Part shown: positions 36,791 to 52,008 of the stretch, in pieces
Numbering within the stretch: position 1 is the first letter of the stretch
Layout: the number at the start of each line of letters is the position of its first letter
Notes under the pieces: model-generated
The model's input: only the letters and a program-made list of their open reading frames with translations
Database searches by the model: none
What the model was told of the DNA's origin: nothing
Assembly: GCA_028283855.1 (NCBI GenBank)
Contig: JAPWJX010000004.1
Location: 1 to 64,000 of the forward strand
Length of the DNA: 64,000 nucleotides
Reading direction: 5' to 3'
Source of the DNA: Verrucomicrobium sp.
Lineage (GTDB): Bacteria; Verrucomicrobiota; Verrucomicrobiia; Methylacidiphilales; GAS474
Translations under genes and position numbers: made by a program

Positions 36791-38557
36791 TTATTCGGGC
36801 AGGAAGCCGCCTGATTGGAGCGCCCAGAGCCGGGCGTAGGCCCCCTGGCGGGCAAGGAGGGCGGCGTGGCCTCCTTCTTCCACGATGCGCCCTTTTTCCA
36901 GGACGACGAGCCGGTCCAGGTGGGAGATCGTCGAGAGCCGGTGGGCGATGGCCAGCACCGTCTTGCCCTCCATCAATTGGGCCAGGCTCTCCTGGATGTA
37001 GCGTTCCGACTCGGAGTCGAGGGCGCTGGTCGCCTCGTCGAGGATGAGGATGGGGGCGTCCTTGAGGATCGCCCGGGCGATGGCGATGCGCTGGCGCTGC
37101 CCGCCGGAGAGGCGGACGCCCCGTTCGCCCACGTGGGTGGCGTAGCCCTGCGGGAGCTGGCGGATGAACTCGTCGGCGTGGGCGCGGCGCGCGGCCTCGG
37201 CGACCTCCTCGTCCGTCGCCTCGACCCGGCCGTAGCGGATGTTTTCCAGCAGGCTCGCCTCGAAGAGGGAGACGTCCTGCGGGATGACGGCGATGCGGCG
37301 GCGGAGGCTCTCCTGGGTCGCGCGGCCGATCTCCTGCCCGTCGACGCGGATTGCGCCCGTTTCCGGGTCCTGGAAGCGGAGGAGGAGCTGGACCAGCGTT
37401 GTCTTCCCCGCGCCGGAATGGCCGACGAGGCCGACCTTCTGCCGCCCCGGCACGCGGAAGGTGAAATCCTGGAAGATGGGTTTGGCCGCGTGGTAGGAAA
37501 AGCCGACCCGGTCGAACTCGATCGCCCCCTCCCGCACCTCCAGGGCGAAGCGGCCTTCCGGCCGGTCGGCCAGACGCTCGAACTCGGCGTGGAGCGGCTC
37601 CGCCGCGCGCAGGTCGGCGTCCTGGCGGGTGAGCCCCTGGTAGGCGATGGCCAGGGCGCCGAAGACGCCGTTGACGCTGTGGAGGTATTGGTAGAGGGCC
37701 ACCAGGCTGCCCAAGAGCAGCGCGTGCCCGGGCCGCAGGTGCAGGGCGATGTAGCCCAGGAGAATGCCGAACTCCGCCAGCGCCGCCAGCATCATCCAGT
37801 TGAACCACTTCACCTCCACGGTCAGGATGTAGCGCCGCAGGAGGAGCTGCACGGCGTCGAGCGCCTTGTCCAGCACCGCGCCGGTGTGCCGCACCAGGTT
37901 GAAGGCCAGCACCCCCGGCATGTTTCCCACATAGTCGAAGAAGGAGGCCGAGTAGAGGTGCTCCTTCTCATTCTGCTCCTTTAGGAGGAGCTGCTGCTTT
38001 TTTTCCTGCCGGATCAAGAGCGCGAAGATGAGGGCGGCGAAAAGGGCCTCCGCCCCCGCCGCCAGCGGGGAGATCCAGGCCAGGAGCGCCAGCGCGCCGA
38101 AGAAGCGGATGAAGTTCTCCACGTAGAGGAACTGCGCGTCGGCGAATTCGTAGAGCCCCTGGGAAGCCTTCGTGATCCGGTGGATCGTGTTGCCGGAGTG
38201 GTGCTCCTGGTGCCAGCGGACGGGGAGCTGGGTCAGCAGGTCGTAGTGGCGCTGGAGGAAGCGCCGCTTCACGTGGAAGGCCACGTTCCGCTCCAGGACG
38301 CGGGCCGGGCCGTGGAAGGCCCAGAAGAGGAGGAGCAGCCCGATGTTCGCGCCCAGCCACAGGGCCGATTGCCGGAGCAGGTCCGGCCCGCCGCGCTGAA
38401 GGACGTTGACCAGCGCGCCGATGACGACGGGCTGGAGGAGGAAGGCCACGTTGGCCCCCGCGGTGAGGGAGACGAAGAGGACGACCGTCCGCCGCCGCTC
38501 CCCCGCGTAGCGCCAGACGGTGGAGAAGAGGTGGAAGTAGGGGATGTCGCGGATCAT
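36791..38557 (-). CDS. ABC exporter, fused membrane and ATPase domains (MsbA/HlyB-type)
   Basis: A half-transporter of 588 residues: six membrane helices in residues 20-320 followed by an ATPase domain with Walker [11 protein letters not shown]-loop VIPQDVSLF, signature [10 protein letters not shown], Walker [13 protein letters not shown] and H-loop IAHRLS. It is expected to work as a homodimer exporting a lipid, glycolipid or peptide. The upstream adenine deaminase gene overlaps it by ATGA at 38554-38557, while the downstream neighbours are a glycosyltransferase and a flippase, so a glycolipid substrate is likely. Confidence 0.92.
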
Positions 38558-40365
38558 TCGAAGAGCGGCGCCAATTCCATGGTGGCGACGCGGACCAATC
38601 CCTTGTCCGTCAGGCGCAGGGCGGGAATGACGGAAAGGGGCAAAAGATTGAATCCCATGTAGGGCATCCGGCAGCCCACGGCCTCCCAGGCCTCCCGCAG
38701 CGTGGCCACCTGGGCGGCCACCTCTCCCACCCGCTGGTCGGAAAGGAGCCCGGCCACGGGCAGGGGCAGATGGGCCAGGACCTTGCCCGCCTGCACCACG
38801 CAGACGCCGCCGTGCGTCTTCCGCAGCGCCTGGAGGGCGGCGCGCATTTCAAAGGCGTCGGTCCCCGCCACCACCACGTTGTGCGCGTCGTGCCCCACGG
38901 AGCTGGCCACCGCCGCCTCCGGCACGGAAAAGCCGAAGCCCTGCAGCAGGCCGTGGGCGGCGTGGCCGCCCTGGCCGTGCCGTTCCAGCACCGCCAGGTG
39001 GACCAGCCGGTGGGCGGCGCAGAATTCCTTGAGCGGGCGGGATTCCAGGGGCAGCACCGCCTCCTCCGTCACGATCTGGCCGGGCAGGAGCCGGATGACG
39101 CGGGCCTTGGTCACGGCGGGCGGCAGCTCCGGCACCAGGGGCGGGAGCTTCTTTTTGAGGCGGAGCGTGCGGTAGGCGCGCGCCGGGTAGCGGTAGCGGC
39201 GGCGCTCGGAAAGGGCCTCGTCCAGGAGCGGGGTGATCCGCTTTCCCTCCACCACCAGCCGTCCGCCGTACCAGGTGTTTTCCACCTCCAGCGAGTCGTT
39301 GAGCAGGACCATGTCGGCCCGGCGGCCGTGGCCCAGCGCGCCGATTTCCCCGTCCATGCCGAAGCGCGTGGCGGCGTGTAGGGAGCCCAGGCTCCACGCG
39401 GCGGCGGGTTTCAACCCGGCCTGCGCCGCCTGGCGGACAGCCCAATCCATGCCGAATTGGAGGAGGTCGGCCGCGTCGCGGTCGTCCGTGCAGAGGCAGA
39501 AGCGCTTCGGGCTAAGGCCGCCCTGGGTGACTGCGCGGATCACGTCCGGCAGGTTGTTCCAGGGGGAGCCGGGCGGGCCGCTGCGCAGGAAGATCCAGAG
39601 GCCGGCCTCCAGCAGCGCCTCGGCGATGGCGGGGTCGACCGCCTCATGCGTGTCGGTCACGCCGCTGGCGGCGTAGGCGGCGACGAACTCGTGCCCGAAG
39701 ACGTGGCCGGAGACGGGGCGTCCGCGCCGGAGGGCCTCCCGCAGGATGGCGTGGCTCCCTTCCTCCCCGCGCGCCACGGAGACGAAGTCCATCTTCTCCC
39801 CCAGGGCCACGGCTTCCGGCCAGCGGTCGAAAAGCTTGCCGATGCGCGAGGCGTCGAGGGAGCCGCCCGCCGTCTCCAGGCCGGGATGGGTGGCGGGGAC
39901 GGTGCTGGGCACGGTCAGAAAAATGGAGAGGGGAGCCTGCCGGGCGTCCTCCAGCATCATCTCCACGCCGCGCGCGCCCAGGACGTTGGCGATCTCGTGG
40001 CTGTCGCAAAAGATGGTGGTGGTACCGTTGCGCAGGGCCGCTTCCGCGTAGGCGCAGGCGGTGACCATGCTGCTCTCGATATGGAGGTGGGCGTCGACCA
40101 GCCCGGGGGCCAGGAGGCCGCCCCGCGCGTCGTATTCCCGCGCGGCGTCGCCGGGGGGCAGGGTGCCGCAGGGATGGACGGCGGCGATGCGGCCCTGCTC
40201 GATCCAGATTTCGCGGTCTTCCAGGATCCGCTCCGAATAGGCGGAGAGGACGCGCGCCCGGCGGATAATCAGCTGCGGGCGTTCCGCGCCGGAGGCGACC
40301 GCCGCCAGCCGCCGCGTCACGTCCGCCAGGGGAGGGACGGGAAACGGGCGCTCGCCGGAGGGCAT
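38554..40365 (-). CDS. ade: Adenine deaminase
   Basis: Converts adenine to hypoxanthine. An amidohydrolase of the Ade family: [14 protein letters not shown] (metal His pair), [36 protein letters not shown], and the Ade-specific C-terminal domain with [13 protein letters not shown] and [22 protein letters not shown]. Length 603 is typical. It feeds purine breakdown, which the genes to its right complete, yet its stop overlaps the start of an ABC exporter. A GC hairpin and about 80 bases lie between it and the GDYXXLXY gene upstream, so it may have its own promoter. Confidence 0.94.
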
Positions 40366-40445: not shown

Positions 40446-41930
40446 TTAGTTTTGGGAGGAAGGGTCCCCGGCGAGGGGAGGGACGGAGGTGGGGTGCGGA
40501 GGCGCTTCGATAGGGGGGGGCGAAGAAGGCGGCGTGAACGTCTCCGGGGGAATGTCATCCGTCTTCCAGTTGGAGAAGGTGAGGGCGGAGTTTATCGAAG
40601 TGGAGTTGGATGCGTTAAGGGATCGGCTCCATTTGAGAAGAAAGGGGGAGGCGCCTTGGGCGATCCAAAAATCGGTCGTGCTGTTGAGATTGGCCGCTTG
40701 GAGGTGAAAGGCCGCCTGCCCATCCAGAGTTTCTTCTCCCAAAAGGGTAACAGGGACTCCCCGGAGTTGAAGGAAGAGGGAGGGGTGGGGCGAAACCAAG
40801 GCGGAAACGCACACATGCGTTCCCCGGCTGATATGAGCCAGATGTGCTTTGGTGACCAAGGAGGGCAGGTCGGCGGGAGCAGCATCGGTGCGATAGGAGC
40901 GGGTGTAGGGCAGCAAAACCGCCAGGGTTTGCCCGTCGGAGATCGTGGCGCCCCCCTGTTCGGGATCGGCGATCAAGGCGAAGGAGTTCGGACGGGCAAC
41001 GGAGAGGGTATAGACCCCTTGGCCCTCCCGTCCGGGAGAGGATGCAAAGTGGGTGGATTCCTGCCATGCCACCTTGGCCTGAAAGCTTTTTAGCCCCGCG
41101 TAGAACGTGTCGAAATCCTGGAAGATCCGTTCGGCTTTTCGGTTTTCTTCCGTGTTCGCGGGAGGGGCGGGGGGCTGGGGGGGAGCTTTTACGGAAACGG
41201 AGGGCGCGAGCGCTGGAAAAGTTGGAGCGGAAGAATCGGGTTGCGGGATGGCTTGAATGGAAGGGGGTGAGGGCGGGGGAGCCAGATTCGGGGTGGGCGG
41301 GGGTGCTGAAACGGTGGAGGATTTTAAGTATTCCAGCACGGGCACGTTCTCTATGTAGAGGTCCTTAATGGTGGCGTGATAGTTTCGAATGGCTACGCAG
41401 GCGTAGGCTTCTTTCCCCCGTAAGATCGAAGCGCTTCCACCTCTTTGCTCCAGGGCGGCCTGAGTTTCGGCGGCCTCCTTTTGTTTCATGTAAAAGCGGT
41501 CGAAGGGAAGTTGGATGCGCCAGGCGGGTTGGGCGTGCCGCGTGGCGGGATCCCAATCGGTGCCCTGGGTCAAGGTAACGGGCAGGCTTTCGTCCGGGGC
41601 TAAGATGGGCCGCTTTTCGCTCAAGGAGTCGATTTCCGCCCAGCCGTCGGCATTTTCATGGAAAACGGCATACACGGGAACGGCTTTCCCGTGGGCGCGC
41701 TCTTTGAGATCGTCGCTCAGGTTCTGGGCGGCGGAGTCCGGAACGCGCTGCGCCTCAAATTGCAGGGTGACGTATCCGCCGCGGAACATGTCCATCGGGT
41801 CGACGGCCCGGGTTTTGAATCTGAAGGCTTGCCCATTCCGCAGGGTCAACTCCTCTCGCTGTATTAAATAGAGGGGGACGGCCGCCTGGGCGCAAGCGAG
41901 CAGGATAAAGAGCAAAACGCGCGGCTTCAT
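40446..41930 (-). CDS. GDYXXLXY-domain protein fused to a LolA/DUF2092-like domain
   Basis: A 494-residue exported or anchored protein. An N-terminal hydrophobic segment (VLLFILLACAQAAVPLYLI) is followed by a GDYXXLXY-type domain to about residue 205. It has FKTRAVDPMDMFRGGYVTLQF, where the motif reads GGYVTLQF, and ends ACVAIRNYHATIKDLYIE. A Pro-rich linker (about 210-265) leads to a second domain with FYAGLKSFQAKVAWQEST, YTLSVARPNSFALIAD, ISDGQTLAVLLPYTRSY and LDGQAAFHLQAANLNSTTDFWI, which has the look of LolA or DUF2092 lipid-binding folds. A Pro-rich tail ends it. GDYXXLXY genes commonly follow DUF2157 genes, as here. The added second domain is unusual. Function unknown. Confidence 0.75.
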   Translation of the reverse strand: MKPRVLLFILLACAQAAVPLYLIQREELTLRNGQAFRFKTRAVDPMDMFRGGYVTLQFEAQRVPDSAAQNLSDDLKERAHGKAVPVYAVFHENADGWAEIDSLSEKRPILAPDESLPVTLTQGTDWDPATRHAQPAWRIQLPFDRFYMKQKEAAETQAALEQRGGSASILRGKEAYACVAIRNYHATIKDLYIENVPVLEYLKSSTVSAPPPTPNLAPPPSPPSIQAIPQPDSSAPTFPALAPSVSVKAPPQPPAPPANTEENRKAERIFQDFDTFYAGLKSFQAKVAWQESTHFASSPGREGQGVYTLSVARPNSFALIADPEQGGATISDGQTLAVLLPYTRSYRTDAAPADLPSLVTKAHLAHISRGTHVCVSALVSPHPSLFLQLRGVPVTLLGEETLDGQAAFHLQAANLNSTTDFWIAQGASPFLLKWSRSLNASNSTSINSALTFSNWKTDDIPPETFTPPSSPPPIEAPPHPTSVPPLAGDPSSQN

Positions 41931-43240
41931 GAAGCTTTCTTCCGTTGGATCCTGGAGAAGAAGATGTTCACGCTCAAAAAGCCCATGCCGAGCAGGATGT
42001 ACGCGCCCCCCCGGATTACGAAGTCCAGGGAGCTGTCTGCAAAGCGCAGGACGGCCAGGAAGCCCAGCAGCCCCATGCCTTCGTTGACGGTGCGCAGGCT
42101 ATTTTCCCGGAAGCCGCCGATCATGATGGAAATGGAGAGGGCCACGGTATAGATGTTCATGAAGAGCATCGATATGGCCGGGAAATCCCCCTCGGCGATG
42201 AGCCAGGCCAGCCCGACGCAGACGGGAAAGACGGCGAAGAGGATTTTAAAGCGGTGCCCGGAGCGCAACAGGAATGCGGCGAGCGCCAGGAAAAGCGCCG
42301 GAAAGGCCAGGCAGATGAGAAGGCTCGGCACGGAAGAGGTGTTTCCATTGGCCCAATGAAATTCCCAGGTGGTTTGAAAGGTGCCAAGGAGCGCGCACGC
42401 CTCGATGGTCGAGGTGGAGAGCCTCTCCAGCCGCTTGCTTCCAAACGGGGGCTGCCCGAAAAAAGGGTGGCGGGAAAGGAGATAGCAGGACCCCAGAAAA
42501 CCGCCGACCGCCAGGTAGCCGATTCGATGGCCCGCCTGGGTGGCCTCGGCGAAGAGGAGGAAGAGCAGGCCGTAGAGGCTGAACCAAAAGAGCCAGCGGA
42601 AGGAGGTGGAGCGGCCTTGTTTCCAAAGGGGGTAAAGCTGGGCCGCTGCCGCCAGAAATAAGGTCCAGTTAAGCAGGGTTTCCTTGGGGGCGAAGCTGGC
42701 GTACATGCCCGCGATATTGAGGCAGAGGATCGCCGCTCCCACGGAGTCGAGGAGGTAGACCACCGGCAGCGCGAGGAAAAACCATGTCAGCAGGAACGAG
42801 GCGGTGCTGCCCGCGATGTGATAGGTCTGGCTGACAAGGGAAATGGAGGCGCCGACGGCCAAGACCTGGAAGGTGGCCGCCCCTTCCTGCCAGGCTTTGG
42901 AGGAGGATCGCAGGGCATATCCCGAAAGGCCGATGCCGACGATAAGCGGGAGGAAGGAGAGGGCGACGCGAACCGGGTGGCCCAGCTCATTCCAATTGTG
43001 GGCGATGATCAGGATGATGCCGCAGCCGACGAGCAGCCCGCCTAGAAGGGAGCAAACGAAGGCGACAAGGGAGGGATGGGCGGATTTCGCGGCCTGGGTG
43101 GCGTAGCGCGTTCGCAGGTTTTCCGCGTCGGCAGGGGAAATGACCCCTTTGGCGGTCAGCTCGGGGAGTTGTTCCAGTAGCCAGCGGGAGGCCTGGAGAT
43201 CGGAGGGGGTGGGCTGGTCTTTATCGGTATTCGGATCCAT
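41927..43240 (-). CDS. DUF2157-family membrane protein
   Basis: A 437-residue protein. The soluble N-terminus (LLEQLPELTAKGVISPADAENLRTRY) is the DUF2157 start, and about twelve hydrophobic segments follow (for example VAFVCSLLGGLLVGCGIILIIAHNWNELG). Function is not known. Its stop overlaps the start of the GDYXXLXY gene (ATGA), and the two are a frequent pair. It begins 24 bases after the guanine deaminase stop, so it may be on the purine operon transcript. Confidence 0.85.
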   Translation of the reverse strand: MDPNTDKDQPTPSDLQASRWLLEQLPELTAKGVISPADAENLRTRYATQAAKSAHPSLVAFVCSLLGGLLVGCGIILIIAHNWNELGHPVRVALSFLPLIVGIGLSGYALRSSSKAWQEGAATFQVLAVGASISLVSQTYHIAGSTASFLLTWFFLALPVVYLLDSVGAAILCLNIAGMYASFAPKETLLNWTLFLAAAAQLYPLWKQGRSTSFRWLFWFSLYGLLFLLFAEATQAGHRIGYLAVGGFLGSCYLLSRHPFFGQPPFGSKRLERLSTSTIEACALLGTFQTTWEFHWANGNTSSVPSLLICLAFPALFLALAAFLLRSGHRFKILFAVFPVCVGLAWLIAEGDFPAISMLFMNIYTVALSISIMIGGFRENSLRTVNEGMGLLGFLAVLRFADSSLDFVIRGGAYILLGMGFLSVNIFFSRIQRKKAS

Positions 43241-43264: not shown

Positions 43265-43738
43265 TTAGTAGGGCTTCTTGTCCGGCTTCGTCACCCAGGC
43301 CTCGAAGGCGGCCTGGGCTTCGGCGTCGGGAAGAAGATGGGTGGGGAGCGACCGCTCGTCGACGGGGAGGGCGACCTCCTTATAGAGGAAGGCGTCGTCG
43401 AAGCCGATGCGGGCGGCGTCTTCCCGCGTGTTGGCGTAGTAGAGGCGGTCGATCCGGGCCCAGTAGACGGCGGCCAGGCACATGGGGCAGGGCTCGCAGC
43501 TGGTATAGAGCTCGCACCCGGCCAGGGTGAAGGTGTTCAGGGCCTTGCAGGCCTCCCGGATGGCGACGACTTCCGCGTGGGCCGTCGGGTCGTTCGTGGA
43601 GGTGACGCCGTTGTTCCCGCGGCCGACGATTTCCCCGCCGCGCACGATGACGCAGCCGAAGGGGCCGCCCCGGCCGGCGTCCATCCCTTCCCGGGAAAGG
43701 CGCGCGGCTTCCCGCATGAAGTCCTGAGGCGTCTTCAT
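43265..43738 (-). CDS. guaD: Guanine deaminase (CDA-fold nucleoside deaminase)
   Basis: Converts guanine to xanthine. It has the cytidine-deaminase fold: zinc ligand and proton shuttle HAE in DPTAHAEVVAIREA, and PCPMC in YTSCEPCPMCLAAVYWARI. The C-terminus with FDDAFLYKEVALP and the length of 157 residues match bacterial GuaD rather than tRNA adenosine deaminase. ATG 43738 overlaps the uricase stop (ATGA). In a cluster for purine breakdown this assignment is well supported. Confidence 0.92.
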   Translation of the reverse strand: MKTPQDFMREAARLSREGMDAGRGGPFGCVIVRGGEIVGRGNNGVTSTNDPTAHAEVVAIREACKALNTFTLAGCELYTSCEPCPMCLAAVYWARIDRLYYANTREDAARIGFDDAFLYKEVALPVDERSLPTHLLPDAEAQAAFEAWVTKPDKKPY

Positions 43739-44562
43739 CGGCCGAGGCGGGCCTCGATTTGGCCGTGGGGCTCGTCGGTGGGCAGGAAGATTTCGCCCGG
43801 GTTTTCCAGTTTGAAGGGGGCGAAGTTGACGGGCAGGTAGTGCTTGTTCGGCATGGCCAGGTGGATTTCCTCGATGGCGGGGACCTTTTCCAGCGCGGCC
43901 TGGCCCATTAGGTAGAGGGTATTCTGAAGGGAGGGGCTGAAGGTGTCGGCGAAGGTGGTGAGGAGCGTTTCCAGGATCGCCGCGTCGGCGGCGAAGTCGG
44001 CCCCGCGCGCGGCGTAGAGCCAGGTGGCGTCGACCTGGGTGGCCAGGATCCGGTCGTCGGTTTCCGGCAGGGTGGTGTAGGCGTCCTTGGGATATCCCTT
44101 GAAGGCGGAGTTGGTGGAGTTGAGGACCAACAGGCCCCGCACGCCGCCCTCGACGCGGCAGTTTTCCCGGTCGATCTCCACCCGGCCGTAGGGTAGTCCG
44201 CTGGAGCCGCCCTGGAAGGTGTGGGGCCGCCCGGCGTAGCGCTCCCACCGGCGCAGGGTGACCTCGACGCGGGCCTTGGCCACCGCCGGGTAGGCGGAGA
44301 GGAAGTAGTCCCCCAGCGCCAGGGCGAAGGCCTGCGGGCAGGGGCCCAGGTGCTTTTGCGCCAGGATCTGGACGGTGTTCTTGACCGTGTCGGTGGGGGT
44401 GACCTTGCCGTTGTCGCCGGTCAGGTAGGTGGCGGCGAAGTCGCCCTCCAGCATCGCTTTGACTTCGGCCTCGTAGACGTCGTGCCGGCCTTCGGCGCCG
44501 CGGACGACGCGCAGGACGCGGACGCGGCCCTTGCCGTAGGTGTTCGTGAGGAGTTGTGCCAT
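43735..44562 (-). CDS. Urate oxidase (cofactor-free uricase)
   Basis: Oxidises urate to 5-hydroxyisourate with O2, giving H2O2. The catalytic Lys11 (TYGKGRVRV), Thr57-Asp58 (KVTPTDTVKNT) and His in MPNKHYLPVNF are present, as are NSTNSAFKGYPKD and TQVDATW. Length 275. Start ATG 44562 gives MAQLLTNTYGKG; the frame extends to 44610 but upstream residues overlap the Rieske gene. It lies between the Rieske oxygenase and guanine deaminase and supplies the substrate for the HIU hydrolase encoded at the head of the operon. Confidence 0.94.
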   Translation of the reverse strand: MAQLLTNTYGKGRVRVLRVVRGAEGRHDVYEAEVKAMLEGDFAATYLTGDNGKVTPTDTVKNTVQILAQKHLGPCPQAFALALGDYFLSAYPAVAKARVEVTLRRWERYAGRPHTFQGGSSGLPYGRVEIDRENCRVEGGVRGLLVLNSTNSAFKGYPKDAYTTLPETDDRILATQVDATWLYAARGADFAADAAILETLLTTFADTFSPSLQNTLYLMGQAALEKVPAIEEIHLAMPNKHYLPVNFAPFKLENPGEIFLPTDEPHGQIEARLGR

Positions 44563-44572
44563 CTGGTGCTTT

Positions 44573-45592
44573 CTAGGTCGTATAATTACGGCCCAGGCCC
44601 AGGACGCCAAGCGCTTTGCGGTATTCGATGGAGGTGCGGTCGGCCCGGATGTGGACTTCCTCCGTCAGGTCGATGGGGAGGTCTTCCGGGCACTGCGTTT
44701 CGACGATGTCTTGGTCTTCGGCGAAGACCTTGGCGTTGAATTCCTTCACCAGCTGTTCCGGGAAGTCCTTGTCGAAGTCCCGGCAGATGGGGACGAAGAG
44801 CCGCGTTTTCCGGGCGGAGATGGGGCAGCAGGCGTTGAGGATGCAGAGGTGGCCGTTGTCCGGGAAGTGGACGGTGAGCCGCGCGCTGAAGGGGACGGTC
44901 ACCTCGAAGACGCGCCGCCAGACGAAGCCTTCCGGAGCGCGGTGCCGCTGGTCCGGGGTGTAGTTGGAGACGGAGCTGGTGTAGTCCATGAGGAGCCCGT
45001 GGGGCCGGGGCGTCACCTCGTAGCGGGGGACGATGGGGTTGCTCCGATCGCCGAAGGTTTCCGTGTGGATCCAGGCGAAGTGGGCGACGTCGAGGAACCC
45101 TTCCAGCTGGCGCCCGGCGGCGGCGTTCATGTCGACGGAGTCGGGCAGGACGCGGACGTAGTTCGGATCGTCCCATTCGTGGAAGTCGGGGAGGACCTGC
45201 GGGGCGGAGGGATCGAGGCAGGTCCAGACCAGGCCGTATTTTTCCACGGTGGGGAAGGTCTGGAGGCAGAGTTTGGGCGGAATCGCCGCGCCGGGGTGGG
45301 CGGGGATATCGATGCACTTGCCGTCCGGGGCGTAGCGGAAGCCGTGGTATTTGCAGACCAGGTCGTTCCCCTCCACCCAGCCCTTCGTCAGCGGGACGCC
45401 CCGGTGGAGGCAGAGGTCGACGGCGGCGGTGACGCCTTTCTCGTTCCGGTAGAGGACGAGTTTTTGGTCCAGGAGCTGGGCGGCGTAGGGGGCCGCCTTG
45501 ACGTCATGGGAGAAGGCGACGGGATACCAGAACTTGGAGAGGATCTCCCAGTCGGTCGGCGAAAAGGTACATCGGGAAGGCGGCATGCTCAA
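44573..45592 (-). CDS. Rieske non-heme iron oxygenase, candidate hypoxanthine/xanthine hydroxylase
   Basis: A 339-residue oxygenase subunit. The Rieske [2Fe-2S] ligands are C61-x-H63 and C80-x2-H83; the mononuclear iron site is D168-x2-H171-x4-H176 (LDVAHFAWIH). No reductase domain is attached, and no ferredoxin reductase gene is nearby. In Klebsiella a Rieske oxygenase (HpxD) with reductase HpxE replaces xanthine dehydrogenase in purine breakdown. Here the gene lies directly upstream of uricase, and no xanthine dehydrogenase genes are in the window. Oxidation of hypoxanthine or xanthine to urate is therefore the best guess for its role, but this is inference from context. A demethylase role is the alternative. 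Confidence 0.85.
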   Translation of the reverse strand: MSMPPSRCTFSPTDWEILSKFWYPVAFSHDVKAAPYAAQLLDQKLVLYRNEKGVTAAVDLCLHRGVPLTKGWVEGNDLVCKYHGFRYAPDGKCIDIPAHPGAAIPPKLCLQTFPTVEKYGLVWTCLDPSAPQVLPDFHEWDDPNYVRVLPDSVDMNAAAGRQLEGFLDVAHFAWIHTETFGDRSNPIVPRYEVTPRPHGLLMDYTSSVSNYTPDQRHRAPEGFVWRRVFEVTVPFSARLTVHFPDNGHLCILNACCPISARKTRLFVPICRDFDKDFPEQLVKEFNAKVFAEDQDIVETQCPEDLPIDLTEEVHIRADRTSIEYRKALGVLGLGRNYTT

Positions 45593-45628: not shown

Positions 45629-46585
45629 TTAATTTGAGACGACGTTGCGCGGTTTCCCGGCCAGGAAGGCGCGGAGGTTTTCCGCCGTCTGATGCATAAG
45701 GCGCTCCCGCGCGGCGAAGCTGGCCCAGGCGATGTGGGGGACGACGAGGCAGCGCGGCGCGGAGAGAAGCGGGTGGTCGGCCGGGGGCGGCTCCGCGGAG
45801 AGGACGTCGACGGCGGCATGGGCGATGATCCCCTCCTGCAGGGCGCGGGCCACGTCGGCGTCGTTGAGGAGGCCGCCCCGGGCGGTGTTGACGAGGATGG
45901 CGCTGCGCTTCATCCGCTTCAGGTTGTCCCAGGAGATGAGGCCCTGGGTCTGCGGGGTGAGCGGGCAGTGGAGGCTCACCACGTCGCTCGATTCCAGCAG
46001 GGCGGGCAGCCCCAGGAAGGTGACGGGGTATTCGCTCCACGGCTTGGCGGTGCGGGTGTGGACCAGCACCTTCATGCCGAAGGCGTGGGCGATCCGCCCC
46101 ACGGCCTGCGCCGTCTGGCCGAAGCCGACGAGGCCGATCGACTTCCCCGCAAGCTCGATGAGGGGGAAATCCCAGAAGCAGAAATCGGGGCTGGCGCTCC
46201 ACGCCCCCTCCGCCACGCGCCGCGCGTGGTGGCCGACGTGGTGGGTCACTTCCAGGAGGAGGGCGAAGACGAGCTGGGCGACCGAGTCGGTGCTGTAGCC
46301 CGGCACGTTCGTCACCGTCACGCCGCGGTGCTTGGCCGCCTCCAGGTCGACCATGTTGTAGCCCGTGGCGGTCACGCCGACGTAGCGGAGCTTCGGCGCC
46401 GCCTCGAACGCGGCGGCGGGCAGGGCGGCCTTGTTCGTCAGGACGGCCTCCGCCTCGGCCAGGCGGGCGGCCAGCTCGGCGGGAGAGGTGCGGGGATAAA
46501 AAGTCGTTTCCGCCAGCGCCTCGACTTCCTTCCAGGAAAGGTCGCCGGGGTTGAGGGTGTGTCCGTCGAGGATGACTAGTTTCAT
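45629..46585 (-). CDS. D-2-hydroxyacid dehydrogenase, probable glyoxylate/hydroxypyruvate reductase
   Basis: A 318-residue NAD(P)-dependent dehydrogenase of the D-isomer family. The NAD motif is GLVGFGQTAQAVG, the substrate Arg lies in VNTARGGLLND, Glu in VLSAEPPP and the catalytic His in VPHIAWAS. The N-terminal VGVTATGYNMVDL matches glycerate dehydrogenase-like members. Placed among genes that turn allantoate into glyoxylate, it likely reduces glyoxylate to glycolate (or hydroxypyruvate to glycerate). The specificity is inferred from context. Confidence 0.88.
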   Translation of the reverse strand: MKLVILDGHTLNPGDLSWKEVEALAETTFYPRTSPAELAARLAEAEAVLTNKAALPAAAFEAAPKLRYVGVTATGYNMVDLEAAKHRGVTVTNVPGYSTDSVAQLVFALLLEVTHHVGHHARRVAEGAWSASPDFCFWDFPLIELAGKSIGLVGFGQTAQAVGRIAHAFGMKVLVHTRTAKPWSEYPVTFLGLPALLESSDVVSLHCPLTPQTQGLISWDNLKRMKRSAILVNTARGGLLNDADVARALQEGIIAHAAVDVLSAEPPPADHPLLSAPRCLVVPHIAWASFAARERLMHQTAENLRAFLAGKPRNVVSN

Positions 46586-46595
46586 AAAGGTTTTT

Positions 46596-47864
46596 TCAGG
46601 AGGCCCATTCCCGCAGGGCGGCGGCCAGGACCGCCGCGCCGCGCGCGGTCTCTTCCGGGGAGGTGTATTCGTCCGGCCGGTGGCTGACGCCGCCCCGGCT
46701 GGGGACGAAGAGCATCGTCACCGGGCAGAGGAGGGCCATGAACAGGGTGTCGTGGTAGGCGTGGCTGACCAGGGGGACGGCCTTCAGCCCGGCCTCCCGC
46801 GCCAGGCGCAGCAGGTCGTCGCGCAGGCCCGCGTCGCACAGGGCGGGCGGGTCGAGGTTGATCGGCTCCTCCAGGAAGGTGACGCCGCGCCGTTTGCAGG
46901 CCTCCTCCGCGGCGGCCTCGATGGCGCGGAGCGTCCGCTCCCGCACGGCCACGTCGGTGTCCCGCAGGTCGATTTCCAGGAGGGCGGAGGCGGGGATGCT
47001 GTTGATCGCGTTGGGGCCGATCTGGAAGACGCCGGTCGTCGCCACCGTGTCGGGGCTGCCCGATTCCTTCGCCGCCTTTTCCGCCGCCAGGGCGATTTCC
47101 GCCCCGGCCAGGAGCGCGTCGTGCCGCCCGGGCATGAGGACGGCCCCGGCGTGGCCGCCTTCCCCCGTCAGCCGGTAGCGGAAGGCGGCGGGCGCGGCGA
47201 TCTTCTCCACCACCGCCAGGTCGAGGCCCTCTTTTTCCAGGATCGGGCCCTGCTCGATGTGGAGTTCCACGAAGGCGTGGTAGCACCCGCGCGGCAGGGC
47301 GGCGGAGGCCAGCGGCGCGGCGGCCCAGGAATAGCCGGCGGCGGCCAGCCCCTCCCGCCATTGGGCCAGGGTGACTCCGCCGGAGTCGCGCAGGGCGGCG
47401 GCCTTTTCCGGGGAGAGCGCGCCGGAAAGCATCCGGCTGCCCAGGCAGCCCAGGCCGAAGCGGGTCGGCTCCTCGGCGGCGAAGACAACCAGCTCGATCG
47501 CGCGGCGCGGCGCGAAGCCGGAGGCGCGCAGCGCGCGGAAGGCCTCCAGCGCGCCCAGGACGCCCACGACGCCGTCGTAGCGGCCCGCGTTCGGGATCGC
47601 GTCGATGTGGGAGCCGGTGGCCACGGCGGGCAGGCCGGGCTCCGTCCCCTCCCAGTGGGCGAAGGTGTTGCCCACCGCGTCGGTCCGCAGCTCCAGCCCC
47701 AGCGCGCGGCAGCGGCCCGCCAGCCAGGCGCGGGCGGCCAGGTCCTTTTCGGAATAGAGGACGCGCGTCACCACGGGGGCGGGCGCCTCGGAAATGGCGG
47801 CCAGCTCGTCGATTTCCGCCTGGAGGCGGGCGGCGTCGAGGGAGAGGGCCGGGGCCGGGCTCAC
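46596..47864 (-). CDS. M20-family ureide amidohydrolase (allantoate or ureidoglycolate amidohydrolase)
   Basis: A 422-residue binuclear metallohydrolase of the AllC/carbamoylase group: GSHIDAIPNAGRYDGVVG, AAEEPTRFG, LHIEQGP, GGHAGAVLMPGR, QIGPNAINSIP and GGVSHRPDEY carry metal ligands and substrate-binding residues. GTG 47864 (VSPAPALSLDAARL) overlaps the TGA of ureidoglycine aminohydrolase. A second member is encoded at 49929-51116. In plants two enzymes of this family act before and after ureidoglycine aminohydrolase, so one of the pair here is probably allantoate amidohydrolase and the other ureidoglycolate amidohydrolase. Sequence alone does not say which. Confidence 0.88.
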   Translation of the reverse strand: MSPAPALSLDAARLQAEIDELAAISEAPAPVVTRVLYSEKDLAARAWLAGRCRALGLELRTDAVGNTFAHWEGTEPGLPAVATGSHIDAIPNAGRYDGVVGVLGALEAFRALRASGFAPRRAIELVVFAAEEPTRFGLGCLGSRMLSGALSPEKAAALRDSGGVTLAQWREGLAAAGYSWAAAPLASAALPRGCYHAFVELHIEQGPILEKEGLDLAVVEKIAAPAAFRYRLTGEGGHAGAVLMPGRHDALLAGAEIALAAEKAAKESGSPDTVATTGVFQIGPNAINSIPASALLEIDLRDTDVAVRERTLRAIEAAAEEACKRRGVTFLEEPINLDPPALCDAGLRDDLLRLAREAGLKAVPLVSHAYHDTLFMALLCPVTMLFVPSRGGVSHRPDEYTSPEETARGAAVLAAALREWAS

Positions 47865-48607
47865 AGCAGGGGGCGGTTGACGTCCTTGTAGTAGAGGTAG
47901 GCGGCGGGCTCGTCCCCCATCGCCACGAACCATTGCGGGCAGTGGGGGGCCATCCAGATCACGTCCCCGGCGGTCACCGGGTACCATTCCTCTTCCAGCC
48001 GGTAGATCCCCTGGCCGCGCAACATGAGGAGTCCGTGCTCCATCACGTGCGTTTCGACGAAGGGGAGGGTGGCTCCCGGCTGGTAGGTGAAGACGTTCAC
48101 CGCCATGTCCCACGCGGGGGCGTCCGGGAGGAGGACTTGGAGGAGGGCTTTGGGATTGCCCAGGAAGGGCTGGCCCTCCACGTCGGCGCCGCGGCCGAAG
48201 AGGGAGGCGGGCGGCGCCTCGTCCTTCTGCGGCACGAATTCCTTGGCGAAGACGGCGACGACGGCCGGGTCCTCCCCCGCGCGGAGGGAGCCCGCGTCGG
48301 CCGGTGAAAGGTAGAGGTATTCGCCGGGGCTCAGCGCGCGGTCCTCCGCCCGGGCCCTGGCGACGACCTTGCCCTGAAGCACGTAGAAGAAGTGCTGGCT
48401 GCCGCGGGAGGAAAAGTTGGCCGTGCCGCCTGCCTCGATGTGGAGCGTGTATTGGGCGAAGCCGGCCCCCAGCGCGGGCGTGATGTGGGCGACGGCGCGG
48501 ACCTTTTCCATGCCCGGCAGGACGCTGGCGACGTGGCCGTCCGGGGTGATGAGGGCGTGCCGCCCGGCGACGCGGGTGCGGGTGGAACCGAAGAGGGGGG
48601 TGCTCAT
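47861..48607 (-). CDS. allE: (S)-ureidoglycine aminohydrolase
   Basis: Releases ammonia from ureidoglycine to give (S)-ureidoglycolate. A bicupin of 248 residues: the C-terminal cupin has Mn ligands in E-T-H-V-M-E-H (FVETHVMEHGLL) and the Gln ligand in HCPQWF; the N-terminal cupin has SQHFFYVLQGKV. These match UGlyAH (YlbA/AllE). It overlaps allantoinase upstream (48604-48607) and the M20 hydrolase downstream, placing it exactly between the steps it links. Confidence 0.93.
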   Translation of the reverse strand: MSTPLFGSTRTRVAGRHALITPDGHVASVLPGMEKVRAVAHITPALGAGFAQYTLHIEAGGTANFSSRGSQHFFYVLQGKVVARARAEDRALSPGEYLYLSPADAGSLRAGEDPAVVAVFAKEFVPQKDEAPPASLFGRGADVEGQPFLGNPKALLQVLLPDAPAWDMAVNVFTYQPGATLPFVETHVMEHGLLMLRGQGIYRLEEEWYPVTAGDVIWMAPHCPQWFVAMGDEPAAYLYYKDVNRPLL

Positions 48608-49932
48608 GATAAGGGGGTGGGGCGCAGGAGCTGCGCGGTGAAGGAGGCGGGCGTCGGCGCGGGGTGGACGGAGACGCCCCGGCAGAAGGTTTCGACGACT
48701 TGAAGTCCCGACACGACGCCAACGTAAGGCGATTGCCGGTGGCGGTAAAGCAATTCGGACGCCTCGATCCGGCGCTCCTCCGGGCGGAGCACCGTCACGT
48801 CGGCGCGGAAGCCCGGCTCCAGGCGGCCCATCTCCGCCAGGCGGAAGCGGCGGGCGACATTCTCCGTAAGGAGCGGCACGGTCTCCGCCAGGGAGAGCCC
48901 CCGGTCGAGCGCGGCCTGGAGGAAGAGGGGCGCGGCGTGCTGGCAGCCGGAGATGCCGCCCCAGACGGCGAAGAAGTCGGCGTCCCGCTTCATCTCCGGC
49001 GGGGCGGGGGAATGGTCGGAGCCGACAGTCAGGATCTTCCCCTCCGCCAGGCCCTGCCAGAGCCGGTCCCGCTCCGCCGCCGCGCGCAGGGGCGGGGCAC
49101 ATTTGGCGACGGGGCCCTTTTCCGCCATGTCCTCCTCCGTGAGGAGGAGGTAGTGCGGGCAGGTTTCCGCCGTGGCCCCGCCGCGCAGGGCGGCGTCGAG
49201 GCCCGCCGCCGTGCTGACGTGGACGATGTGGAGGGAGCAGCCCGTTTCCCGCGCCAGGGAGCAGGCCATCTCGATGGCGGCCACCTCCGCCTCCGGGGGG
49301 CGGGAGGCCAGGTAGTCCCGCACGCCGGTCTTTCCGGCGGCGCGGGCGGCCTCCGCCAGGCGGCGGGTCGTTGCCTCGTCCTCCGCGTGGACGGCCACGG
49401 GCAGCCCCAGCTCCGCCGCGCGGGCCATCCCTTCCCGCAGCGTCGCCGCGTCGGCGGCGGGGAACTCCGGCAGGCCGCTGTCGGAAAGGAAGGCCTTGAA
49501 GCCGATCGCGCCGCGCGCGGCCAGTTCCGGCAGCGCCTTCAGGTTCAGCGGGGTCAGGCCGCCCCAGAGCGCCGCGTCGAGCCGGGAGGAGCGGGCCAGG
49601 GCGGCGGCCTTCGCGTCGAACGCGGCGCCGTCCAGGACGGGCGGCGTGCTGTTGAGCGGCATGTCGAAGAAGGCGCTCCCGCCCCCGGCGGCCAGGGCGG
49701 CGCTGCCGGTGGCCAGGCCCTCCCACTCGGCCCGGCCCGGCTCGTTGAAATGGACGTGGGCGTCGATGAATCCGGGGAGGACGTATGCTCCACCGGCGTC
49801 GACGATCCGCGCGGCGGGGAGGTCCAGGGAAGGGGCCACGGCCACGATCCGCCCCGCGCGCCAGGCGACGTCGGCCACGGAGCCGTCGGCCAGCGTGCCG
49901 CCGCGCAGGAGGACGTCGCACGGCCCGTTCAC
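48604..49932 (-). CDS. allB: Allantoinase
   Basis: Opens allantoin to allantoate. A cyclic amidohydrolase of 442 residues: metal His59 and His61 (FIDAHVHFNEPGR), carboxylated Lys146 (IGFKAFLSDSG), VAVHAED, HIVHVST and Asp in VGSDHSP. The phrases FFDMPLNSTPP and WGGISGCQHA point to allantoinase rather than dihydroorotase. GTG 49932 overlaps the TGA of the upstream M20 gene. The longer open frame upstream is a shadow. Confidence 0.94.
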   Translation of the reverse strand: MNGPCDVLLRGGTLADGSVADVAWRAGRIVAVAPSLDLPAARIVDAGGAYVLPGFIDAHVHFNEPGRAEWEGLATGSAALAAGGGSAFFDMPLNSTPPVLDGAAFDAKAAALARSSRLDAALWGGLTPLNLKALPELAARGAIGFKAFLSDSGLPEFPAADAATLREGMARAAELGLPVAVHAEDEATTRRLAEAARAAGKTGVRDYLASRPPEAEVAAIEMACSLARETGCSLHIVHVSTAAGLDAALRGGATAETCPHYLLLTEEDMAEKGPVAKCAPPLRAAAERDRLWQGLAEGKILTVGSDHSPAPPEMKRDADFFAVWGGISGCQHAAPLFLQAALDRGLSLAETVPLLTENVARRFRLAEMGRLEPGFRADVTVLRPEERRIEASELLYRHRQSPYVGVVSGLQVVETFCRGVSVHPAPTPASFTAQLLRPTPLS

Positions 49933-51116
49933 TTCGCGAAATCCTCCAGGAAGCGGGCCAGGGCGCGCGCGGCGGCGGCCAGGTCGTCCGGCGCGGCGTA
50001 TTCGTCCGGATGGTGGGAAAGGCCGTCCCGGCAGCGGATGAAGAGCATGCCCACGGGAGCGATGCGGGAGAGGATGACGCCGTCGTGCCCGGCCCCGCTC
50101 ACCAGCCGGGGCGGCTCGTGGGCGGCCTTCGCCAGCTTGGAAAGGAGCGCGGCGTCGCAGTCCACCTCCTCCTGGACGAGGAGCGTCCGCACGCGCGCGG
50201 TGACGCCCCGCTCCTGCGCGCTGTGGGCGGCGCGCTCTTCCAGCAGTTCCCGGGCGTGGGTGACGGCCCAGGTTTCCGCGTGGCGGAGGTCGACGGAGAG
50301 GACCACCTCCCCCGGGATGACGTTGCCCGCGTTGGGGGAGACGTGGACGCGGCCGACGGTGGCCACGAGGCCCTCCGTGTGCCGCCCCAGGTCCTCCACG
50401 GCCAGGATGAAGGCGGCGGCGGCGCACAGGGCGTCCTGGCGTCCGGCCATCGGCGTCGTCCCGGCGTGCCCGGCCACGCCGGTGAAGACCGCTTCCAGCC
50501 GGACCTGCGCGGCGATGTGGGTGACGACGCCCAGAGGCGCTTCCCGCCGTTCCAGGACGGGGCCCTGCTCGATGTGGGCCTCCACGTAGCCCAATAGGCG
50601 CTTGGCCACGTAGAGGGAGACCGGCGGTTCGGCCAGGTCGGAGGCCTGGGCCAGGGTGATCCCGTCGCGGTCGCGCAGGAGGAGGTCTTCCGGCTCCAGC
50701 TGGCCGGTCACCGCCTTGCTCCCCAGGTAGGGCGTGCCGAAGCGGACGCCCTCCTCGTCGGCGAAGGCCAGCACGTCGACGTCGAAGGGAAGGATGACGC
50801 CCCGTTCCCGCAGGTCCTCCAGCGCGGCCAGCGCGGTGACGATCCCCGCCGGGCCGTCATAGCCGCCGCCGTTGCGGACGGTGTCCAGGTGGGAGCCCAG
50901 CAGCAGGGTTCCCGCCTCCGGCGTGGCGCCCGGCAGGTGGCCGATGACGCTGCCCAAGGCGTCGATCCGCGCTTCCAGCCCGGCATCGGTCATCCAGCCG
51001 TAGACCAGGCGGGCGGCCTCCGCCATGGCGGGGGAAAGGAGGGTGCGGGTGATCCGGCCCGGCTCGTCGGTGACGGTGGCCAGCTTCGCGATCCGCGCGG
51101 CGAGCTTTGCTTCCAT
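49929..51116 (-). CDS. M20-family ureide amidohydrolase (allantoate or ureidoglycolate amidohydrolase)
   Basis: A 395-residue relative of the hydrolase at 46596: GSHLDTVRNGGGYDGPAG, FADEEGVRFGTPYLGSKAV, AHIEQGP, AGHAGTTPMAGRQDAL, RVHVSPNAGNVIPGEV and GLSHHPDEYA. These are the metal and substrate blocks of AllC-type enzymes, which hydrolyse allantoate to ureidoglycine, CO2 and NH3. Start ATG 51116 lies 17 bases after HIU hydrolase. Its coupling to allantoinase (GTGA) slightly favours allantoate as its substrate; the other copy would then act on ureidoglycolate. Confidence 0.9.
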   Translation of the reverse strand: MEAKLAARIAKLATVTDEPGRITRTLLSPAMAEAARLVYGWMTDAGLEARIDALGSVIGHLPGATPEAGTLLLGSHLDTVRNGGGYDGPAGIVTALAALEDLRERGVILPFDVDVLAFADEEGVRFGTPYLGSKAVTGQLEPEDLLLRDRDGITLAQASDLAEPPVSLYVAKRLLGYVEAHIEQGPVLERREAPLGVVTHIAAQVRLEAVFTGVAGHAGTTPMAGRQDALCAAAAFILAVEDLGRHTEGLVATVGRVHVSPNAGNVIPGEVVLSVDLRHAETWAVTHARELLEERAAHSAQERGVTARVRTLLVQEEVDCDAALLSKLAKAAHEPPRLVSGAGHDGVILSRIAPVGMLFIRCRDGLSHHPDEYAAPDDLAAAARALARFLEDFAK

Positions 51117-51133: not shown

Positions 51134-51478
51134 TCAGCTTCCCCGGTAGGTCGTGTAGGCCCAGGGGGAGGCCAGGAGCGGCACGTGGTAGGAGCCGCCC
51201 GCCTCCATGGCGAAGCGGACCGGCACCTCGTCCAGGAAGGGGGAGGGGACGCCGAGGCTTTGGAAATAGGCGCCGAGGTGGAAGAGCAGCTCGTAGCTCC
51301 CGGCCTGGACGGCCTCGCCGGAGAGGAGCGGGGCGTCGGTCCGGCCGTCCGCGTTCGTCGCCGCCGTTTGGAGGAGCGTCCGCGCGCCGCCGGATTCCAG
51401 GCGGAAAAGCTCGATCGTGAGGCCCGCCGCGGGGCGGCCGTGGCAGGTGTCCAGGACGTGGGTGGAGAGTTTGCTCAT
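51134..51478 (-). CDS. uraH: 5-hydroxyisourate hydrolase (transthyretin-like)
   Basis: Hydrolyses 5-hydroxyisourate to OHCU. A 114-residue transthyretin-like protein with STHVLDT (catalytic His7), GRPAAGL, NADGRTDAPLL (Arg), SYHVPLLASPWAYTTYRGS and the diagnostic C-terminal YRGS. No signal peptide, so cytosolic like the uricase. ATG 51478 overlaps the stop of OHCU decarboxylase. Confidence 0.97.
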   Translation of the reverse strand: MSKLSTHVLDTCHGRPAAGLTIELFRLESGGARTLLQTAATNADGRTDAPLLSGEAVQAGSYELLFHLGAYFQSLGVPSPFLDEVPVRFAMEAGGSYHVPLLASPWAYTTYRGS

Positions 51479-52008
51479 GCGGAAAAGATCTGTTCCAGGC
51501 GCAGGGTGGCGATTTTTTCGATTTCGGCCAGCGCCGTGTCGAACTCCGTTTGGGGATCATTCTCCAGCCGCCGCGCGAAGGCGGAGAGGATGGCGGCCTT
51601 GTCGTTGAGCCGCGCGCAGATGACGAAGGGAAAGCCGAACTTCTCCCGGTAGCGCGCGTTGCCCGCCTCGAAGCGGGCCAGCTCCTCCTCGGATAGCCGG
51701 TCCAGGCCCGCACCGGCCTGCTCCGCGCGGGAGGCGGCGGTCAGCTTGTTCTCCCGCGCCAGCCGCCCGGCCAGGTCGGGGTGGGCGCGGATGAGGGTCA
51801 GCTTCTTTTCCCGGCCGCTTTCCCGCAGCACGGCGACGAGTTTTTCGCGCAGGTCGGCGGGGGAGGAAAAGGGCCGCCGCTCCCACGCGGCGGCGGCGAT
51901 CCAGGGCGACTCTTCAAAGACGGGACCGAAAATCGCCACGAAATCGTCACATGAAAAATCGTTCAAAGAAGGGGGGGTCACGACGCCAGCCAGATAAACA
52001 CGTCCCAT
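51475..52008 (-). CDS. uraD: 2-oxo-4-hydroxy-4-carboxy-5-ureidoimidazoline (OHCU) decarboxylase
   Basis: Decarboxylates OHCU stereospecifically to (S)-allantoin. It is a 177-residue all-helical protein: LIRAHPDLAGRLA contains the catalytic His, then FEAGNARYREKFGFPFVICARLN. First gene of the purine-catabolic unit, so the operon promoter should lie in 52009-52140, shared with the divergent mannitol operon. ATG 52008 is followed by MGRVYLAGVVTPPSLNDFSC; the domain proper begins at about residue 12, so a later start is possible. Confidence 0.94.
   Translation of the reverse strand: MGRVYLAGVVTPPSLNDFSCDDFVAIFGPVFEESPWIAAAAWERRPFSSPADLREKLVAVLRESGREKKLTLIRAHPDLAGRLARENKLTAASRAEQAGAGLDRLSEEELARFEAGNARYREKFGFPFVICARLNDKAAILSAFARRLENDPQTEFDTALAEIEKIATLRLEQIFSA

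Follow-up and report, generated by a model that had tools for sequence, protein, structure and literature searches.

The Rieske gene within a purine-catabolism operon of Verrucomicrobium sp., a member of the Methylacidiphilales (Verrucomicrobiota), very probably encodes an HpxD-type oxygenase that stands in for xanthine dehydrogenase in this host, as its sequence and gene context suggest. The proposal, which we hold with good confidence, is that the enzyme hydroxylates the purine ring in a host apparently lacking molybdenum-cofactor synthesis, and that its electrons do not come through HpxE. The gene was studied in a 64-kb stretch of DNA (64,000 nucleotides), referred to here as the window.

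In the ORF list of the window, the Rieske gene spans 45592-44573 on the minus strand and encodes 339 amino acids from a TTG, and an ATG two codons in, at 45586, gives a protein of 337 amino acids. The product matches the Pfam domains Rieske (71 bits, against a cut-off of 20.3) and VanA_C (71.5 bits, against 23.5). The [2Fe-2S] and mononuclear iron ligands, described as intact in the earlier note, were all found: C59, H61, C78 and H81 are the Rieske cluster ligands, H169, H174 and D291 form the 2-His-1-carboxylate site, and the bridging D166 is also present, all of them invariant in an alignment of 15 homologues. With its C-X-H ... C-X2-H motif and its iron site, the protein is a Rieske non-haem iron oxygenase. 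The AlphaFold2 model has a mean pLDDT of 85.7, and its best solved fold matches are SxtT/GxtA (TM 0.80-0.86).

Ten genes lie in a row on the minus strand, from UraD at 52008 down to the probable guanine deaminase at 43265. Neighbours are separated by -4 to +42 bp, a tight spacing that is consistent with one transcription unit. An adenine deaminase gene follows downstream on the same strand. In order, the genes are:

51475-52008, minus strand: OHCU decarboxylase (TIGR03164, 198.7 bits, cut-off 96.25)
51134-51478, minus strand: 5-hydroxyisourate (HIU) hydrolase (TIGR02962, 124.2 bits, cut-off 87.45)
49929-51116, minus strand: allantoate amidohydrolase (TIGR01879 over cut-off; best model PRK09290.2-5, 447 bits, cut-off 479)
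48604-49932, minus strand: allantoinase (TIGR03178, 461.4 bits, cut-off 357.85)
47861-48607, minus strand: (S)-ureidoglycine aminohydrolase (TIGR03214, 282.4 bits, cut-off 200)
46596-47825, minus strand: second M20 amidohydrolase, by its pathway position a probable ureidoglycolate amidohydrolase (TIGR01879 over cut-off, allantoate-amidohydrolase subfamily models); the true start is probably slightly upstream
45629-46585, minus strand: D-2-hydroxyacid dehydrogenase (PF02826/PF00389) that may act as a glyoxylate reductase on the end product
44573-45586, minus strand: HpxD-like Rieske non-haem iron oxygenase that is proposed to hydroxylate xanthine and hypoxanthine (Pfam Rieske and VanA_C, identity, tree, ligands)
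43735-44562, minus strand: factor-independent urate oxidase (TIGR03383, 283.8 bits, cut-off 168.4)
43265-43738, minus strand: CDA-fold deaminase (PF00383), probably a guanine deaminase yielding xanthine, the end of the ten-gene run
38554-40365, minus strand: adenine deaminase (adenine to hypoxanthine; PF13382 and PF01979)

The uricase gene is directly downstream of the Rieske gene. The run takes purine bases through to glyoxylate with only hypoxanthine and xanthine oxidation unaccounted for, which leaves that step for the Rieske enzyme. This was the gap pointed out in the earlier note, an operon with deaminases and a uricase but no molybdenum xanthine dehydrogenase; the genes are as described, and the window has no match to PF02738, the molybdopterin-binding subunit. 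The Rieske gene is placed among purine-catabolism genes both here (52008-43265) and in the related genome G015, where the CDA-fold deaminase also adjoins the uricase (64% identical) and the D-2-hydroxyacid dehydrogenase is kept in the operon (67% identical). The guanine deaminase, ureidoglycolate amidohydrolase and glyoxylate reductase are predicted from family and position, and the CDA-fold deaminase scores below the cut-off for TadA. PMC10579966 describes TsaC/TsaD as recycling NADH for a Rieske oxygenase. The D-2-hydroxyacid dehydrogenase might act in this way here, but glyoxylate reduction seems the likelier role. The genes between the guanine and adenine deaminases (40446-43240) encode DUF2157 and GDYXXLXY/DUF2092 proteins, which are membrane or periplasmic, and their third-position GC is lower than that of the purine genes. 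An Rfam search of the window found two tRNAs only, with neither a xanthine (NMT1) riboswitch nor any further regulatory RNA.

Identity and tree placement assign the window protein to the HpxD group and not to the demethylases. It shares 50-53% identity with proteobacterial HpxD; the homologues from Enterobacterales (including Klebsiella HpxD), Paraburkholderia, Frateuria and Sphingobium are at 48-53%, and two cyanobacterial proteins are at 61-62%. Identity is about 33-35% to SxtT/GxtA (35% to SxtT) and 31-33% to NdmA/NdmB. A maximum-likelihood tree places the window protein together with the copies from G015 and a second related genome, G127, and with the cyanobacterial and proteobacterial HpxD (UFBoot 99); on the other side of this split are NdmA/NdmB, SxtT, Methylacidiphilaceae homologues and the family f20 proteins. 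The earlier comparison with the HpxDE solution of Klebsiella agrees with both the identities and the tree, and the placement among demethylases that would have spoken against it was not seen.

Genome-wide absences rest on family and protein searches. PF02738 has zero matches in the window or the rest of the host genome (G000; 2.56 Mb, 9 contigs, 95.6% complete), while control genomes gave matches, and a family search of the same genome did not find MoaA (PF06463). The lack of both suggests that the missing xanthine dehydrogenase is probably a real absence, and the host seems incapable of molybdenum-cofactor synthesis. A full xanthine dehydrogenase elsewhere in the genome, named in the earlier note as evidence against its reading, did not turn up. 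The operon is not constant within the genus: neither HpxD nor this uricase is present in the congeners G001 and G002, which do carry a molybdenum hydroxylase. The hydroxylase genes of these congeners were considered as a syntenic xanthine dehydrogenase and rejected, as there are no purine genes beside them.

The pairing of HpxD with this uricase recurs in two relatives. This type of uricase is present in three of the 17 genomes checked for it (G000, G015 and G127), all of which have HpxD (57-68% identity). In G015 the operon is ordered as in the window, apart from a few inserted genes and a tandem HpxD pair in place of the single gene. G127 belongs to another family and is 99% complete; its urate genes are on one contig and its two tandem HpxD genes on another, and neither PF02738 nor MoaA was found in it. 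MoaA is present in G015, along with three PF02738 matches. One of the matched proteins, grouped with an iron-sulphur subunit that carries a Tat signal, is read as a periplasmic aldehyde dehydrogenase, and the other two are short fragments at contig ends. Two of the three genomes with both uricase and HpxD, G000 and G127, appear free of the molybdenum cofactor, and G015 is not informative. Several HpxD-bearing genomes (K. grimontii, Phormidium and others) also carry molybdenum hydroxylases, so HpxD does not stand in for them in every case. Close HpxD is rare in the phylum (6 of 388 genomes at E 1e-70). The tandem pairs (L061 at G015:C158, L062 at G127:C52) are in two distant Verrucomicrobiota genomes.

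It is improbable that a xanthine dehydrogenase lies in the part of the genome missing from the 9 contigs and that the Rieske protein has another role, since MoaA is missing as well and the pattern is repeated in the 99% complete G127; the incompleteness of G000 is what leaves room for it. Slightly less probable still is an NdmA-like N-demethylase of methylxanthines. The complete urate pathway around the gene argues against this, as do the 33% identity to NdmA and the tree, even though NdmA ranks with the nearest solved structures (sequence E 5e-43, TM 0.75-0.82 to the model) and shares purine-contacting residues. NdmA F168, N282 and F286, numbered on the assumption that 18 residues of the crystal chain are a tag, correspond to window F164, N284 and F288, which are conserved in the HpxD clade; we take these to be purine-binding positions. 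N282 and F286 are the pair altered in the NdmA QL mutant 6icp. The window protein is outside the NdmA/NdmB clade, and no NdmD- or Fer2-type reductase, with a plant-type ferredoxin domain, was found in G000, and both results speak against an NdmA-type N-demethylase.

For the HpxD-type oxygenase, we infer the substrates, reaction, pathway end and electron route from homology and gene context. Xanthine would be hydroxylated at C8 to urate, using O2 and reducing equivalents, and hypoxanthine would probably be hydroxylated at C2 to xanthine by the same enzyme. Urate would pass to the adjacent uricase and then to HIU hydrolase, OHCU decarboxylase and allantoinase, and allantoate amidohydrolase, ureidoglycine aminohydrolase and the second M20 hydrolase would complete the route to glyoxylate and ammonia. 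Electrons would reach HpxD by a chain other than an HpxE-type reductase.

A doubtful variant is that the enzyme carries out only the conversion of xanthine to urate, with hypoxanthine going to salvage or to another enzyme, and that the tandem pairs represent a division of labour. G015 and G127 each have two adjacent HpxD genes where the window has one, and their second copies form a group of their own (support 99) with intact catalytic ligands. However, both steps are assigned to hpxDE in K. pneumoniae, where these genes take part in hypoxanthine and xanthine oxidation (PMC7373994), and the adenine deaminase nearby on the same strand suggests that hypoxanthine is used. It is conceivable, though we lean somewhat against it, that in genomes without the cofactor hypoxanthine and xanthine have come to reach urate through HpxD alone, on a shared electron chain other than HpxE, and that tandem duplication split the two hydroxylations in some relatives.

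Of 18 proteobacterial HpxD loci, 17 have HpxE as a neighbour, namely every one from enterobacteria, Paraburkholderia and Frateuria. It is not beside HpxD in the remaining one, from Sphingobium, nor at any cyanobacterial or verrucomicrobial locus examined. The earlier note had remarked that no reductase gene accompanies the Rieske gene, and this holds for HpxE across the genome: a Klebsiella HpxE query at E 1e-4 gave no match in G000, G001, G002, G015 or G127, and only weak partial matches in the cyanobacterial genomes. A general reductase, as the earlier note suggested, may serve in its place. The sole plant-type [2Fe-2S] (PF00111) match in G000 is SdhB. The host does not have an HpxDE two-component system, with a cognate HpxE carrying a plant-type [2Fe-2S] domain. 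Electrons may instead come from a stand-alone Rieske ferredoxin (G000 C3:289496-289795) with a flavin reductase, such as a CysJ-like FAD/NADPH protein (G000 C1:56920), although this particular pairing is rather unlikely. A carrier search that covered Rieske ferredoxins, plant-type [2Fe-2S] and NAD_binding_1 proteins gave no other small Rieske ferredoxin, no other NAD_binding_1 reductase and, besides SdhB, no plant-type ferredoxin in this genome. The candidacy of the ferredoxin is weakened because G127, with two HpxD, has no such protein, and the ferredoxin is widespread in the order in genomes without HpxD. As a dedicated HpxD partner it was rejected, since its distribution does not track HpxD. 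The ferredoxin (L001) has 100 residues and no nitrite reductase beside it.

Klebsiella HpxD is like the window protein in ligands, length, purine-breakdown context and tree group. The Klebsiella hpx system differs in having HpxE, which the host lacks at the locus and genome-wide, and in passing urate to HpxO, an FAD urate oxidase (PMC4562309), where the window operon has a cofactor-free uricase; unlike that system, the host genome is also apparently free of the molybdenum cofactor. The cyanobacterial HpxD genes (Phormidium tenue and a Chroococcidiopsidaceae MAG; L006, L007) adjoin a guanine deaminase and have no adjacent HpxE, as in the window, but their genomes carry molybdenum hydroxylases and MoaA and no uricase of this type. 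NdmA/NdmB have the same fold, with the three NdmA residues kept in the window protein, and differ in clade and in their NdmD-like reductase, which has no counterpart in the host. SxtT/GxtA, the best fold matches, differ in substrates and clade. The literature searched, to which the founding Klebsiella papers did not belong, describes neither an HpxD that lacks HpxE nor one in a genome free of the molybdenum cofactor. New here are an HpxD without a cognate reductase, a genome apparently devoid of the cofactor, and the tandem HpxD pairs that relatives carry.

If the proposal is true, the molybdenum-free purine oxidation of Klebsiella extends to Verrucomicrobiota, with cyanobacterial relatives, and is tied to the lack of the molybdenum cofactor. 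It poses the question of what reduces a Rieske oxygenase without the usual reductase or any plant-type ferredoxin in the genome. It also cautions that an annotation without xdh genes is not the same as an organism without xanthine oxidation.

Family f20 has HpxD-like proteins (45-52% identity; L083 and L084 in G243 and G391, L085 and L086 in G472). Some f20 proteins have Q or E at the conserved N284 position, so their substrates may differ. The f20 genes in G243 and G391 adjoin a nucleobase permease.
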